DNA from: Rhizomicrobium sp.
GTDB lineage: Bacteria; Pseudomonadota; Alphaproteobacteria; Micropepsales; Micropepsaceae
DNA length: 48,365 bases
Direction: 5' to 3'
Assembly (NCBI GenBank): GCA_025451875.1
Contig: JANWJQ010000108.1
Location: forward strand, 1 to 48,365
Below, piece after piece: positions 4,380-9,474 of the stretch. Positions within the stretch are counted from its first letter, which is position 1. Each line of letters begins with the position of its first letter. The translations under genes were made by a program, and so were the position numbers. Under the pieces are notes generated by a model. The model did no database searches. It was not told where the DNA came from and saw only the letters and a program-made list of their open reading frames with translations.

Positions 4380-5108
4380 ATGACCAAGCTCTCCACCTAT
4401 TACGCCAAGCGCGACTTCGGAAAGACGAAGGAACCGCGCGGCAGCGTGGCCAAGGGTGACAAGCACCGCTTCGTCATCCAGCGCCATGCCGCAACCCGGC
4501 TGCATTACGATCTGCGGCTGGAGCTTGAGGGCGTCTACAAAAGCTGGGCGGTGACCAAGACGCCATCGCTCGATCCGGCGGTGAAGCGTCTGGCCGTGGA
4601 GGTGGAAGACCATCCCATCGAATACGGCACTTTCGAAGGCACGATCCCCGAAGACCAATATGGCGGCGGCACCGTGCAGCTATGGGATCGCGGCACCTGG
4701 CGCTCGCAAAGCGACACGCCCGTGCGCGACCTTGCCGGTGGCCATCTGAAATTCGTGATGGAGGGCGAACGGATGAAAGGCAAATGGGCGCTCATCCGCA
4801 TGCGCGACGACAAGCACCGCCCCGGTGCGAAGGTTCGCCACAACTGGCTGCTCATCAAGGAGATCGACGACGAAGCCGCGCGCGGATCGAAGGGCGATGC
4901 GCTCGCGAAGGAGACGACGTCGGTGAAGACGGGCCGCACGCTGGACCAGATCGCGGCGAAATCCACCAAGGTGTGGAACAGCAAGCGCTCGGTGAAAGAG
5001 AATGTCGCGGCGCTGAAGAAAACGGCGAAGAAGAAAGCGCCCACAAAGAAACCCGCCGGAAAAAAAAAGACAACCAAGAAGAAGCCCGTAAAGCGCAAGC
5101 GCGCATGA
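4380..5108 (+). CDS. ligD: LigD 3'-phosphoesterase domain as a separate ORF
   Basis: The 242-residue product is the phosphoesterase (PE) module that normally forms the N-terminus of LigD. It trims 3' ends at double-strand breaks. Catalytic residues H36, H42 and D44 sit in RHAATRLHYDLRLE, followed by EYGTFEGTIPEDQYGGGTV. The last 40 residues are a Lys-rich linker (AKKKAPTKKPAGKKK). The stop TGA (5106-5108) overlaps the ATG of the ligase-polymerase ORF (ATGA). The linker contains A9 and a phased A AAA AAG heptamer, described separately. Most alphaproteobacterial LigD proteins are one PE-ligase-polymerase chain, so the split is unusual. The ATG is 15 nt after GGAAGGGG, a long spacing. Confidence 0.9.
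   Translation: MTKLSTYYAKRDFGKTKEPRGSVAKGDKHRFVIQRHAATRLHYDLRLELEGVYKSWAVTKTPSLDPAVKRLAVEVEDHPIEYGTFEGTIPEDQYGGGTVQLWDRGTWRSQSDTPVRDLAGGHLKFVMEGERMKGKWALIRMRDDKHRPGAKVRHNWLLIKEIDDEAARGSKGDALAKETTSVKTGRTLDQIAAKSTKVWNSKRSVKENVAALKKTAKKKAPTKKPAGKKKTTKKKPVKRKRA
5060..5069 (+). other. A9 run with in-phase A AAA AAG slippery heptamer (candidate -1 recoding site)
   Basis: Nine adenines (5060-5068) followed by G are read in the phosphoesterase frame as GGA AAA AAA AAG ACA. The last seven bases form A AAA AAG in the exact register of the Escherichia coli dnaX slippery site. A -1 slip enters the frame GAC AAC CAA GAA, which runs without a stop into the ligase-polymerase ORF. Homopolymers of nine A are also long enough for RNA polymerase slippage, as known for Thermus dnaX. 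Recoding here is inferred. Confidence 0.5.
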
Positions 5109-5141
5109 AGATGCCCGGCTTCATCGCGCCGCAGCTTGCGC
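5093..5141 (+). other. Stem-loop over the ligD ORF junction
   Basis: GCGCAA (5093-5098) pairs with TTGCGC (5136-5141). GCGCG (5099-5103) pairs with CGCGC (5125-5129). ATGAAG (5105-5110) pairs with CTTCAT (5119-5124), leaving an 8-nt loop. That makes 17 base pairs with small bulges. The stem encloses both the phosphoesterase stop and the ligase-polymerase ATG. It begins 23 nt after the slippery heptamer, further than the usual 5-9 nt for a frameshift stimulator. It could instead gate internal initiation. Confidence 0.4.
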
Positions 5142-6976
5142 GATTGCTGGCGCACCCGCCTTCGGGTGCAAGGTGGGTGCATGAGGTCAAGTTCGACGGC
5201 TACCGCATGCAGGCGCGGGTGGAGAAAGGGAAAGCCAGGCTCCTCACGCGCAAGGGGCTGGACTGGACGGGGCGCTTCCCCGAGATCGCAGCGGATTGCA
5301 CAAAACTTCCCGATTGCATCATCGACGGCGAGATCTGCGCGCTGAACGCGGAAGGCGCCAGCGATTTTGGATTGTTGCAGACCGCGCTCTCCGATCACAG
5401 GACCGGCGCGCTGATCTATTACGTGTTCGACTGCCTGTTCGCGGATGGCACCGACCTGCGCAAGGAAGGTCTGGAAGCACGCAAACAGGTTCTGGAAGAA
5501 CTGCTCAAGCATATCGGAAAATCCAAACGCATAACCTTCGTGCCGCATTTCACATCGTCCGGCGATGCGATGCTGGCCGCGGCCTGCCGCATGGATCTGG
5601 AAGGCGTGATTTCCAAGAATCTGAACGCGCCTTATCAATCGGGCCGCGGCGACAGCTGGACGAAATCCAAATGCCGTGGCGGGCAGGAAGTGGTGATCGG
5701 CGCCTGGCGCGGCACGCCGGGAAAATTCCGCTCACTGATGGTCGGCACCTATCAGAACGGCAAGCTCGTCTATATGGGCCGCGTCGGCACGGGCTATAAT
5801 GCCAAGGTTGCGGCCGATCTGTTGAAGCGGTTGAAGCCGCTCGCGCGCAAGACGTCGCCCTTCTCGAATTCGCCGCCGCGATTGCCGGATGTGAACTGGG
5901 TCGAACCCAAACTGGTGGGCGAAATCGAGTTTGAAAATGTGACGTCGGACGGCTTGTTCCGGCAAGCCGCGTTCAAGGGATTGCGTCTCGACAAACCGGC
6001 GCAGAGCGTGGTGCGCGAAGTGCCGGCGGATGCACCGAAGGAGGAAAAGATGGCGGCGAAACCGAAAGCAAAAGCCAACGCGTCAAAAGGCGACGACACC
6101 GTTCTCGGCATCAAGATCAGCCATCCCGACAAGGAGCTGTGGCCGAAATCCAAGCTCGGCCCCGCTGTCACCAAGCTCGATCTGGCGAAATACATGGCCG
6201 CCGCCGCGGACAGGATGCTGCCGCATGTGGCGGACCGCCCGTCCTCCGTGGTGCGCACGCCGGACGGCATCAAGGGCGAACAATTCTTCCAGCGCCATGA
6301 GCTGAAAGGCACCGCCGCGCCGATGCTGGCCATCAGGGTGAAAGGCGAGGAGAAACCTTATCTCGGCGTCGATAGCGCCGAAGCGCTGGTCGCGCTGGCG
6401 CAACAAGGCGTGACGGAAATCCATCCCTGGGGCTCAAAGCCCGGCGATCCGGAAACGCCCGAGCGCGTGATCTTCGATCTCGATCCCGCGCCCGATGTGA
6501 AATTTGCCGCGGTGGTGGAAGGCGCCAAGGAATTGAAGAAGCGGCTGGAGAAACTTGGCTTCAAACCTTTCGTGAAAACCACCGGCGGCAAGGGGCTGCA
6601 CGTCGTCATCGCGATCAAGGGTGCGGACTGGCCGCAAGCGAAAGCGTTTGCGAAGGCCGTCGCGGTGCAACTCGAGGCCGACGATCCGGCGCGCTACACC
6701 ACGACCATCGCCAAGAAAGCGCGGGGCGGAAAAATCTTCGTCGATTATCTGCGCAACGACAGGACCTCCACCGGCGTGGCGCCATGGAGCCCGCGCGCAC
6801 GCGACGGCGCCACCATCGCCGTGCCGCTGGAATGGAAGGAACTGACGGCGAAGCTGAACCCGCAGGCTTTCACCATCTCCACATCGGCGAAGCTTCTGAA
6901 GAAACCGGATGCGTGGAAAGGATTGGCCGCGTCGGCCAAGCCCATCGCAGCGGCGATGAAGAAACTATCGGGTTAA
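5105..6976 (+). CDS. ligD: LigD ligase-polymerase (ATP-dependent DNA ligase plus NHEJ primase-polymerase)
   Basis: With the ATG at 5105 the product has 623 residues and two LigD domains in the usual order. The ligase (about 1-300) has adenylation Lys K29 in VKFDGYR, DGEI at 74-77, EGVISK at 166-171 and WTKSKC at 185-190. The polymerase (about 335-620) has the metal-binding DLD at 458-460, GGKGLHV at 494-500 and the third Asp near 547. It fills and seals broken DNA ends together with Ku. The frame stays open upstream to 4682, inside the phosphoesterase gene, so a fused product is possible through a -1 shift. No good ribosome site precedes the ATG. Synthesis therefore probably depends on coupling or recoding. 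Confidence 0.93.
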   Translation: MKMPGFIAPQLARLLAHPPSGARWVHEVKFDGYRMQARVEKGKARLLTRKGLDWTGRFPEIAADCTKLPDCIIDGEICALNAEGASDFGLLQTALSDHRTGALIYYVFDCLFADGTDLRKEGLEARKQVLEELLKHIGKSKRITFVPHFTSSGDAMLAAACRMDLEGVISKNLNAPYQSGRGDSWTKSKCRGGQEVVIGAWRGTPGKFRSLMVGTYQNGKLVYMGRVGTGYNAKVAADLLKRLKPLARKTSPFSNSPPRLPDVNWVEPKLVGEIEFENVTSDGLFRQAAFKGLRLDKPAQSVVREVPADAPKEEKMAAKPKAKANASKGDDTVLGIKISHPDKELWPKSKLGPAVTKLDLAKYMAAAADRMLPHVADRPSSVVRTPDGIKGEQFFQRHELKGTAAPMLAIRVKGEEKPYLGVDSAEALVALAQQGVTEIHPWGSKPGDPETPERVIFDLDPAPDVKFAAVVEGAKELKKRLEKLGFKPFVKTTGGKGLHVVIAIKGADWPQAKAFAKAVAVQLEADDPARYTTTIAKKARGGKIFVDYLRNDRTSTGVAPWSPRARDGATIAVPLEWKELTAKLNPQAFTISTSAKLLKKPDAWKGLAASAKPIAAAMKKLSG

Positions 6977-7085: not shown

Positions 7086-8009
7086 CTATCGCGCCTTACG
7101 CTTCTTTGCGTTCGTGTTCGCCGGCTTTGGCGCCGCTTTACCCTTGCTCTTCAGGCTCTTCTTCAACGCTTCCATCAGGTCGATGACGTTGGTTTCTTCC
7201 ACCGGCTCGGCGGTGACGAGCTTCTCGCCCTTCTGCTTCCTGCGAATGAGATCGCGCAACGCCGCTTCGTAGCGGTCCTTGAACTTGTCCGGCTCGAAAT
7301 CGCCCTCCTTCTGCTCGATGATCTTCTCGGCGATGTCGATCATCTTGTGATCGGGCCGCGCGGCCGGGATGTCATGGAAGGCTTTCGCCGGATCGACCAC
7401 TTCGTTCCGCATGCGCAGCGTATAGGCGATGATTCCCTTGTCGCGCGGCTCCAGCGCCATCAGCCGCTCGCGCGTGTGCATGACGACACGGCCAAGCGCG
7501 ATGCGCCCCGTCTTCTCCAGCGCCTGGCGGATCACCACGAAGGCATCCACGCCGGAATCGTCGTTCGGCACCATGTAATAGGGCGTGTTCCAGAACAGCC
7601 GGTCGATGTCGTTCACATCGACGAAGCTTTCGATCTCCAGCGTGTGCGTCGTCTCCAGCTTCACCGCATCGAGTTCATCCTTGTCGATCACGACATATTT
7701 GTTCTTCTCCAGCTCATAGCCCTTCACCAGATCCGCGCGCTCCACCGGCCCGGTGTCCGGATCGGTCGGCACCATGCGGATGCGATTGTTGGTTTCGGGA
7801 TTGAGCAAATGGAAAGAGATGTCATTCGACCGCGACACAGCCCCGAACAGCGCCACCGGACAGGACACCAGCGACAGCCGCAAATTCCCCTGCCAGATCG
7901 GCCGCGCCGAAAGCCTGGCCTCGCCCGTATCGTTGGCGGCCTTATGATGCGCGGCAGCGGGATGCGCCGCGCGCTTTTTGGCTTTCGCTTTCTTTTTCCT
8001 GGCCGCCAT
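7086..8009 (-). CDS. ku: Ku protein, non-homologous end joining
   Basis: The 307-residue product is the bacterial homodimeric Ku that threads onto DNA ends and recruits LigD. The Ku core begins at RPIWQGNLRLSLVSCPVALF and continues through LFWNTPYYMVP and RERLMALEPRDKGI. The start ATG at 8009 has GGAGTG about 7 nt upstream and no other Met precedes the core. The protein therefore has a Lys/Ala/His-rich extension of about 33 residues (MAARKKKAKAKKRAAHPAAA) before the core, where Ku usually has only a few residues. The C-terminus is also Lys-rich (AKKRKAR), as in many bacterial Ku proteins. It converges on ligD across a palindrome-containing gap. Confidence 0.95.
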   Translation of the reverse strand: MAARKKKAKAKKRAAHPAAAHHKAANDTGEARLSARPIWQGNLRLSLVSCPVALFGAVSRSNDISFHLLNPETNNRIRMVPTDPDTGPVERADLVKGYELEKNKYVVIDKDELDAVKLETTHTLEIESFVDVNDIDRLFWNTPYYMVPNDDSGVDAFVVIRQALEKTGRIALGRVVMHTRERLMALEPRDKGIIAYTLRMRNEVVDPAKAFHDIPAARPDHKMIDIAEKIIEQKEGDFEPDKFKDRYEAALRDLIRRKQKGEKLVTAEPVEETNVIDLMEALKKSLKSKGKAAPKPANTNAKKRKAR

Positions 8010-8144
8010 GGAGAACACTCCCGATTGTCCGGGACTCCAACGCCCCGGAACCGGCAATGTTGCCTGGGGTTCGTCGGCGCATGCAATCGAAGCCACGCTC
8101 AGCTGGGAGCGGGGCGACGGTCCATTCAAATGTCGGAAAAAACC

Positions 8145-8189
8145 TGGAGCGGGCGAGGCGAATCGAACGCCCGACCCTAACCTTGGCAA
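8145..8189 (-). repeat. Duplicated 3' end of tRNA-Gly (att site copy)
   Basis: These 45 bases are identical to 9400-9444. They cover the anticodon loop through the encoded CCA, so this is only the 3' portion of the tRNA. The match stops abruptly after GGCAA: TATC follows here but GGTT follows in the real tRNA. It marks the distal attachment site of the island. It lies in the 366-bp gap between ku and the integrase fragment, which holds no gene. Confidence 0.9.
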
Positions 8190-8319
8190 TATCAATTCGT
8201 CTTGTTCCGCAAAATTCCCTGCGATGGATGCAGATGGAATTTCCCTTGTTGAACAGGACTTTGCAGACATCTATCATTTCCCCGAGATGGTCGATCGTTC
8301 CTGCAAATTCCCCTCCGCT

Positions 8320-8375: not shown

Positions 8376-8915
8376 ATGCCAAACCTCACCAGACGTTTCA
8401 TTGAGAGCCTCGGACGCGATCCCTCGAAGAGAGACGTGACGCATTGGGACGACGGCCTCAGTGGCTTTGGCCTACGGGTTCGCGCTTCGGGCGCGATGTC
8501 TTGGATCATCATGTATCGAAACCGTGATGGCAGGCTTCGCAAATACACGATTGGACAGCTTGGTGCGCTGACGCCCGATCAAGCGCGCAAGGAAGCGCGC
8601 CTGAAGCTCGCGGCCGTCTATCAAGGCGCTGATCCTAGTTCCGACAAGAACGCGCAGCGAAAAGCGCTGACGGTTTCCGAGCTGTGCGATCGCTATCAGG
8701 AATATTCGAGGGACCGGATAAAGCCATCCACCTGGAAGATGAATGCGAGCCGGATCGAGTGTCATGTCAAGCCGCTCCTCGGGAAACGAAAAGCGGTATC
8801 CCTCAAGATCGAAGATATCGAAAATCTGCAGCGGGATGTTGCTGCCGGCGCATCCGGTAAGCCTAGCAAGAGGGTAGGCCGTGGCGGAACTGCCCGCGGT
8901 GGTAAAGGCGTGGCT
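8376..8915 (+). pseudogene. Truncated tyrosine-type phage integrase
   Basis: The first 180 codons keep the N-terminal arm-binding domain (WDDGLSGFGLRVRASG, LGALTPDQARKEA) and the core-binding helical domain (SELCDRYQEYSRDRIKPSTW). The homologous reading ends at GGTARGGKGVA. Beyond 8915 the frame stays open for a while, but the sequence is the reverse complement of an hsdM start. The whole catalytic domain with its Arg-His-Arg-Tyr residues is gone, so the product cannot recombine DNA. Transcription points into the island, as expected for an island integrase beside its att site. Confidence 0.88.
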
Positions 8916-9116
8916 GACCACCCCCGCTTTATCGAGCGAAGCCTTCATCGCCAGAACTGCAGGCTTGCTCGGCTCCAGCACCGCATCCAGGCGCCGAAGG
9001 ACAGTCATCGGCAAGATTACGTCGCGGTATTTGCCACGCACGTAGAGGTCCCGCAGGACGTCGTCAGCGATGCCCCAAATAAAGTTGGCCAGCCAATTGA
9101 GATCGCCGTTGCTCAT
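8916..9116 (-). pseudogene. hsdM: N-terminal fragment of type I restriction methyltransferase HsdM
   Basis: From the ATG at 9116, about 67 codons match the HsdM N-terminal helical domain: LNWLANFIWGIADDVLRD, VILPMTVLRRLDAVLEP and AVLAMKASLDKAGV. The SAM-binding and catalytic NPPF parts are absent. After about 8916 the frame reads antisense integrase. A single deletion between the integrase and hsdM explains both truncated genes. It would also have removed the rest of hsdM and any hsdS or hsdR on that side. Confidence 0.8.
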
Positions 9117-9315
9117 TCACCCCAACCCCACGCAAATGCAGTCTATTCCGTTCCGAGGCGCAAATTTCATTAGCCCGGATTGGGGCCTGATTACTGTGTA
9201 GTCCGTCGGATTGCCATCGTGCTTCGCAGCGATCGCAGAACTCGCGACAGACATCCGACTAGCCAACGGTGGTTGGAGATGCTGTCTGCCGGCTGTCTAA
9301 AAACAGCATTCGGCT

Positions 9316-9333: not shown

Positions 9334-9399
9334 AAGGCGGAAATAGGTCAGCCGAACTTTTGCGGACAGCCGATAGTCGGTTGATTTTATTGAGGAACT

Positions 9400-9474
9400 T
9401 GGAGCGGGCGAGGCGAATCGAACGCCCGACCCTAACCTTGGCAAGGTTATGCTCTACCCCTGAGCTACGCCCGC
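9400..9474 (-). tRNA. tRNA-Gly (anticodon GCC)
   Basis: On the minus strand the sequence folds as a complete cloverleaf. The acceptor stem is GCGGGCG/CGCCCGC. The D-arm is GCTCAGGGGTAGAGC. The anticodon arm is TAACC-TTGCCAA-GGTTA with anticodon GCC. The T-arm is GGGCG-TTCGATT-CGCCT. The discriminator is T and CCA is encoded (9400-9402). The 3' half was restored by the integrated island, so this copy should be functional. It is the attachment site of the island remnant at 8145-9444. Confidence 0.97.

Follow-up and report, generated by a model that had tools for sequence, protein, structure and literature searches.

How does a gene whose domains lie in two different reading frames give rise to a complete DNA repair ligase? 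This question is raised by ligD, the ligase gene of bacterial nonhomologous end joining (NHEJ), in a 48,365-base stretch of a Rhizomicrobium sp. genome (contig JANWJQ010000108.1; the whole stretch is hereafter called the window). There, one open reading frame (ORF) encodes the LigD 3'-phosphoesterase (PE) domain and a second encodes the ligase and polymerase domains (LIG-POL), with a Ku gene convergent to both. The ligase frame is -1 relative to the PE frame, and a run of nine adenines (A9) lies shortly before the PE ORF ends. Taken as a whole, the sequence comparisons below are best explained, with a probability of roughly 0.7, by slippage between overlapping, -1-offset frames at a conserved run of eight or nine A. 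Ordinary decoding would yield a free 242-residue PE protein with a basic tail, and either one A added in the transcript or a -1 ribosomal shift on A_AAA_AAG would yield an 865-residue PE-LIG-POL enzyme. One gene would probably make both free PE and full LigD.

A run of nine adenines lies at the junction of the two halves of ligD

The PE ORF (4380-5108, plus strand) encodes a 242-residue protein, with the 3'-phosphoesterase domain (Pfam PF13298 LigD_N, 145 bits) followed by a Lys-rich tail, and ends at a TGA at 5106-5108. Its relatives in the PDB, 2lj6 and 3n9b, are both named 'Probable ATP-dependent DNA ligase'. The LIG-POL ORF (5105-6976, plus strand) encodes 623 residues from an ATG at 5105 to a stop at 6976, an ATP-dependent ligase followed by a primase-polymerase domain. 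It matches PF01068 DNA_ligase_A_M, PF04679 DNA_ligase_A_C and PF21686 LigD_Prim-Pol, is related to 1vs0 over the ligase part (residues 20-305) and to 2fao over the polymerase part (321-621), and holds KFDG and FDLDPAP. In PE the patterns H.A..LH.D.RLE and DHP..Y..FEG.IP are present, as they are in all 16 split loci described below, including L064; we take the patterns searched for in PE and LIG-POL to be catalytic motifs. Thus the locus has the PE, LIG and POL domains with their motifs and a nearby Ku gene, as expected of a bacterial NHEJ LigD, and lacks a single continuous ORF.

The run itself occupies 5060-5068 (plus strand) and is followed by a G at 5069. The PE frame at 5058-5069 reads GGA AAA AAA AAG. 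The heptamer A_AAA_AAG thus falls in that register at 5063-5069, and no stop interrupts the -1 frame between the run and LIG-POL. Translated with a -1 slip, the chain is 865 residues long and has a single, terminal stop. An earlier note on this DNA had placed the two halves in different frames, found the nine A with A AAA AAG in register and predicted a stop-free chain of about 865 residues after a -1 slip; direct reading confirms each of these. In the overlap linker (5070-5104, plus strand) the PE frame encodes TTKKKPVKRKRA and then the stop, and the ligase frame, from 5069, encodes DNQEEARKAQAR ahead of an ATG. That ATG overlaps the PE stop as ATGA at 5105-5108 (plus strand), and a second in-frame ATG follows at 5111. 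The ATGA, absent from the earlier note, makes a separate LIG-POL start possible in the window.

The split and the run are shared across a clade of Micropepsales

We searched 61 relatives, using the window as query (28 matching at E 0.001), 96 genomes of its order (53 matches at E 1e-60), 385 genomes drawn from its class (56 matches at 1e-60) and 398 drawn from its phylum (93 matches at 1e-50); a scan of genome contigs added 70 loci. The junction was read in fetched loci that matched PE as well as LIG-POL, and open-frame length alone was used elsewhere; duplicates were counted once (L002=L033, L101=L031, L103=L032, L104=L040). In the order Micropepsales, PE and LIG lie in different frames at 15 loci from 15 species: L001 (the window), L002, L101, L102, L103, L003, L004, L104, L105, L106, L107, L005, L006, L142 and L155, the last on a contig that ends within the ligase domain and leaves the POL part unreadable. 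The offset is -1 in all 15.

Twelve of the 15 have a run of eight (A8) or nine A close to where the PE ORF ends: nine have A9 and three have A8. Its context varies: A9-G in L001, L104 and L006; A9-C in L005, L142 and L155 (xxA AAA AAA AAC) and in L105-L107 (GCT AAA AAA AAA CTC); and A8-G in L003, L004 and L102 (GCT or GTT AAA AAA AAG). The codons under the run vary as well (KKK, KKN, or KKK then C), and the run is kept. In L003, L004, L102 and L105-L107, a T ahead of the run creates a TAA in the ligase frame, which thus opens at the run. Three split loci, L002, L101 and L103, lack a run. The conservation of run and frame offset that the earlier note proposed to look for in relatives is therefore, among the split loci, complete for the offset and partial for the run, which is missing from the window's nearest relatives.

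We built a careful tree from 30 rows with PE and LIG-POL and a quick tree from 56 rows. In the careful tree, the 15 split loci and two fused ones, L007 and L008, form one clade with support of 100/100, and the same group of 17 is recovered in the quick tree with a support of 98 in the SH-like approximate likelihood ratio test (SH-aLRT). The split loci alone formed one side of a branch in none of 200 bootstrap trees. L007, fused and without a run, pairs with L005 (100/99); at the base of the clade, the branching of L008, a fused locus whose A8 is in frame, is not resolved. The run is found in all three deep branches, so the simplest history, read from the tree, would be an ancestral run lost in L002 plus L101 and in L103, with re-fusion in L007. 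The split might also have arisen in a fused gene whose run was in frame, as it is in L008. A fused relative without a run, which the earlier note regarded as telling against slippage, therefore does occur once in the clade; nested as it is beside a split species, L007 reads as a secondary re-fusion.

The same comparison bears on the possibility that the true gene is one fused ORF, broken by a homopolymer sequencing or assembly error or by a recent A9/A10 mutation. Homopolymers are error-prone, 12 of the 15 genomes are in at least 20 contigs, which also weighs against slippage, and a single-base frame break is present in such data at L011. An error would have had to recur, however, in 15 species and several sequence contexts, always giving -1, and L102, L003 and L004 come from genomes of one to three contigs. 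Further, the PE stop starts at most 1 nt past the start of the ligase match in 15/15 loci. When we read 116 distinct fused loci off-frame, a stop had appeared by that point in 23, 24, 27 and 52 of them for entry 36, 45, 66 and 114 nt upstream, so that, for entry 36-66 nt upstream, only 23-27 of 116 would be expected. The three split loci without a run have an ATG or GTG over the PE stop. The 15-species comparison rules out the single accident that the earlier note held to be the main alternative, and error or recent mutation, largely refuted by these sequences, is very improbable.

Long A runs mutate readily, and run length might instead change in the DNA between generations, toggling LigD between split and fused states. 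Among the 17 loci of the clade, the fused L008 has its A8 in frame and could represent such an 'on' state, and L145, outside the clade, is fused with an in-frame A9. Yet the run is in frame in only one of the 13 run-bearing clade members, and the A8 and A9 forms appear to differ by substitutions that leave the offset unchanged (GCT AAA versus GCA or TCA AAA). We consider phase variation of this kind highly improbable.

Outside Micropepsales, the fetched loci held no -1 split with a run except L064, in a Candidatus Marinimicrobia record (about 2468-2525). It has A9-G, and its first start codon lies 93 nt inside the ligase match. As a lone case outside the clade, on a long branch, it was kept out of the 15; it may have arisen independently, or its run length may be in error. 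Other candidates were rejected. L011 (=L046, genome G033), a sixteenth locus of Micropepsales with PE and LIG in different frames, has an apparent one-base difference in the linker, no run and relatives that read through, and its frame break looks like a pseudogene or an assembly error. In L082 the A9 shares its frame with the beginning of the ligase domain and the break comes further on, L077 has an offset in the opposite direction and no run, and L191, of another order, has an offset without a run. L187-L190 and L192, also outside the order, are short-frame ligase matches with no PE match in the fetched stretch.

Runs at the junction exceed the number expected by chance

We shuffled synonymous codons of the linkers in keeping with the codon usage of each gene. 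Runs of A8 or longer were expected in 3.2 of the 15 clade loci and were seen in 12 (P about 3e-8, uncorrected for kinship); with L064 included, 3.6 of 16 split loci were expected and 13 seen. Across the 55 loci compared, A8 was absent from the PE and LIG-POL matches (127 kb).

Counts by pattern search of the assemblies set the runs in their genomic context. The A9 is the sole run of at least seven A or T in the window and the only A9 or T9 in its assembly, G000 (2.98 Mb, 172 contigs, 81.6% complete). G023 also has a single A9, and in both assemblies it is at ligD. Among overlapping matches, the ligD A9 is 1 of 3 in G011, 1 of 7 in G090, 1 of 3 in G065, 1 of 4 in G063, 1 of 4 in G062, 1 of 6 in G096 and 1 of 13 in G089. 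Genomes without an A9 in ligD have from none to seven elsewhere (G087 0, G002 0, G098 1, G010 2, G083 3, G034 5, G028 7). Overlapping A8 matches number 28 in G098, 38 in G028 and 28 in G029; A8 is thus common there, and its presence in those genomes says little.

Some split loci offer no start codon ahead of the ligase match

In the window, a start codon overlaps the upstream stop, the arrangement of a translationally coupled gene pair. The locus could accordingly be read as two ordinary genes, in which PE ends at the TGA, ribosomes restart at the overlapping ATG to give separate PE and LIG-POL proteins, and the A9 is an idle relic of the Lys-rich tail. Such starts are frequent in the clade. 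An NTG lies over the PE stop in 8 of the 15 loci (ATG in L001, L002 and L101; GTG in L103, L003 and L004; TTG in L105 and L155), and an ATG lies 5-20 nt past the first base of the PE stop in L142, L155, L003, L004, L105 and L107 and 41 nt past it in L104. The sister species L002 and L101 have the ATGA without the run. Further, two loci of the window's own genus, L029 and L030, couple PE by ATGA to POL, not to LIG; in these, LigD is in parts (L029/L020 in G022, L030/L024 in G035), with LIG on another contig.

Coupling cannot cover the whole clade. Between the run and the ligase match, no ATG, GTG or TTG is present in four of the 15 loci, L102, L106, L005 and L006, all of which have the run. Their first such codon falls inside the ligase match, at 15 nt (GTG) in L102, 42 nt (ATG) in L106, 36 nt in L005 and 9 nt in L006. 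In L005 and L006 the open ligase frame reaches back past the run, into a region outside the start search, and L102 and L106 are therefore the clean cases. None of the 15 split loci lacks both a run and a start. In the window, the longest match to a Shine-Dalgarno (SD) sequence ahead of the two ATGs is AAG, and the A9, the sole one in its assembly, has been retained. We regard coupling alone as unlikely. Under the slippage proposal, coupled re-initiation at the window's ATGA would additionally give a separate LIG-POL, and some species would use overlapping starts in place of slippage. The earlier note's slippage-linked split is therefore upheld by the run and offset conserved over the clade, and qualified by the re-initiation that the ATGA offers in the window and by L002 and L101.

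Several observations temper the case for slippage

A number of findings weigh against the proposal. For the window gene, whose tail is rich in Lys, shuffling synonymous codons by its own usage produced an A run of at least eight in 48% of cases; taken by itself the window therefore proves little, and the comparison carries the weight. Fused linkers also hold A runs of at least eight, in 3 of 39 (0.9 expected). L002 and L101, the nearest relatives of the window, have the ATGA and no run.

Substitution patterns are mixed. We counted differences at ligase-frame codon positions 1, 2 and 3, and only two sets favor reading in the ligase frame. For L102/L003/L004 from the run to the PE stop, the counts were 3, 4 and 13 (third position 13/20, p 0.004), and for L105-L107 from the stop to the ligase they were 7, 4 and 13 (third position 13/24, p 0.03). 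No such excess is seen for L102/L003/L004 from stop to ligase (4, 0, 4; third position 4/8), for L105-L107 from run to stop (2, 2, 2; third position 2/6) or for L142/L155 from run to stop (8, 8, 7; ligase third position 7/23). In the trio that includes the window, the run-to-stop counts were 18, 11 and 13, with 13/42 at the ligase third position and 18/42 at the PE-frame third position (p 0.13); the PE-tail third positions thus change most in this subclade, as coupling would predict, without reaching significance, and no ligase-frame constraint is seen in the window's linker. The linker alignments were built on ligase-frame residues and lean toward that frame, pairs drawn from one trio are not independent, and the p-values ignore shared ancestry.

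Finally, among 13 loci (the 12 run-bearing split loci of the clade and L064), inspection by eye found no shared SD-like element in the upstream 25 nt, and 200 shuffles per locus revealed no consistent downstream fold; the z-scores were scattered, and only L001 (75 nt) and L104 went past -2.

Since the run is absent from its nearest relatives and no ligase-frame constraint shows in its linker, the case for the window alone is weaker than that for the clade. From the sequences compared, slippage is quite likely to be in use in the clade and reasonably probable in the window's own gene, which would be expected to give three products, namely PE, LIG-POL in some amount through coupling and fused LigD in some amount through slippage. 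We infer from this comparison that slippage occurs, at some rate, and that both products matter. A single added A would fuse the gene, and such changes should be frequent in A9, yet 12 species keep A8 or A9, which suggests that free PE is important.

Transcriptional and ribosomal slippage are both plausible

The conserved feature is a run of eight or nine A, neither one heptamer nor a stimulator, and this fits transcriptional slippage. Homopolymers of eight or longer are named for transcriptional slippage (Antonov et al., PMC3711429), and runs are avoided from length nine in a large proportion of genomes (Baranov et al., PMC1088944), according to the sections of those papers drawn on here. A homopolymer of that length at the frame junction is kept in 12 of the 15 orthologous loci. 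For a -1 ribosomal frameshift, a heptamer of the X_XXY_YYZ type is present in register, and the SD-like element and hairpin are wanting. In the sections of PMC3711429 drawn on, a direction kept among orthologues points to a ribosomal shift, whereas direction may differ under transcriptional slippage; the -1 offset in 15/15 clade loci matches that rule, and common descent from a single origin could also give it. We consider the two mechanisms about equally probable.

Known systems, as described in the parts of the literature consulted, offer partial parallels. Escherichia coli dnaX uses a -1 ribosomal frameshift on A_AAA_AAG (PMC3711429), and the window has the same heptamer in register, with the -1 direction in 15/15 clade loci. 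Unlike dnaX, ligD has no consistent SD-like element or hairpin, and its shift leads to the longer product. The heptamer is A_AAA_AAG in only six of the 12 run-bearing loci, with A_AAA_AAC in three and A_AAA_AAA in three, so the earlier note's 'dnaX-like' site holds for the heptamer in the window and not for its stimulators or its constancy. Thermus thermophilus dnaX relies on transcriptional slippage on an A9 (PMC1088944) and, like ligD, has a sense-strand A9 and two products from one gene. It is a different gene in a different pathway, in which the standard frame gives the long product, whereas in ligD slippage would give it. In Shigella mxiE and in insertion sequence (IS) transposases, transcriptional slippage links two ORFs (PMC1088944); as in ligD, the ORFs overlap and the long product needs slippage. 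Unlike ligD, a chromosomal DNA-repair ligase, mxiE slips on a U run and the IS genes are mobile.

Outside the clade, L145 (G111) is a fused LigD with an in-frame A9, in which a +1 shift would lead to a stop nine codons on, just ahead of the ligase domain. It may represent the reverse, Thermus dnaX-like layout; as one case, it could be due to chance.

Features next to ligD in the window

The Ku gene (7086-8270, minus strand, start codon provisional) is convergent with ligD; its Pfam PF02735 match scores 146.6 bits on 7086-8150, and the Ku domain lies inside that interval. Beyond it, a tRNA-Gly(gcc) at 9400-9474 (minus strand) has a 49-nt partial copy, 98% identical and 1255 bases off (window 8141-8189 versus 9396-9474). 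Between the two lies an integrase fragment at 8376-9173, with Arm-DNA-bind_3 and SAM-like domains and no match to a catalytic domain. The tRNA copy and integrase fragment beside Ku suggest that an element once inserted at the tRNA and left a remnant.

A probable recoded end-joining ligase

LigD with three domains, LigD domains on separate proteins and end joining with separate domains are all known, as set out in the consulted part of PMC7719229. The locus studied here is like known LigD in its PE, LIG and POL domains and adjoining Ku, and unlike it in the overlap of its PE and LIG-POL ORFs, which slippage can rejoin. As the earlier note had supposed, no recoded LigD turned up in the literature searched, a scope that excludes supplementary candidate lists and the survey of Sharma et al. 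2011. LigD goes unmentioned in PMC3711429 and in the searched part of PMC5009743, and no ligase is mentioned in PMC1088944. Programmed slippage as a kind is already known; LigD as a gene family that uses it appears to be new.

The Sharma et al. study is reportedly a pilot survey of disrupted bacterial ORFs. To our knowledge, only a few bacterial chromosomal housekeeping genes, such as prfB and dnaX, have well-proven recoding.

More tentatively, at a little under even confidence, the Micropepsales clade may have inherited a selected slippage switch that sets the ratio of free PE to the full end-joining ligase. A need for free PE would have kept the one-base fusion from being adopted, and sublineages would since have swapped slippage for an overlapping start or re-fused the gene. 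The loci form a natural series, from slippage only, through slippage with an overlapping start, to an overlapping start only and to re-fusion, in which one two-protein route would turn into another. If the slippage proposal is right, a recoded end-joining ligase would show how the ratio of LigD domains is set and would account for genes that may be annotated as split or broken. And if the slippage is transcriptional, its rate could track nucleotide levels in the resting cells in which end joining is believed to act.

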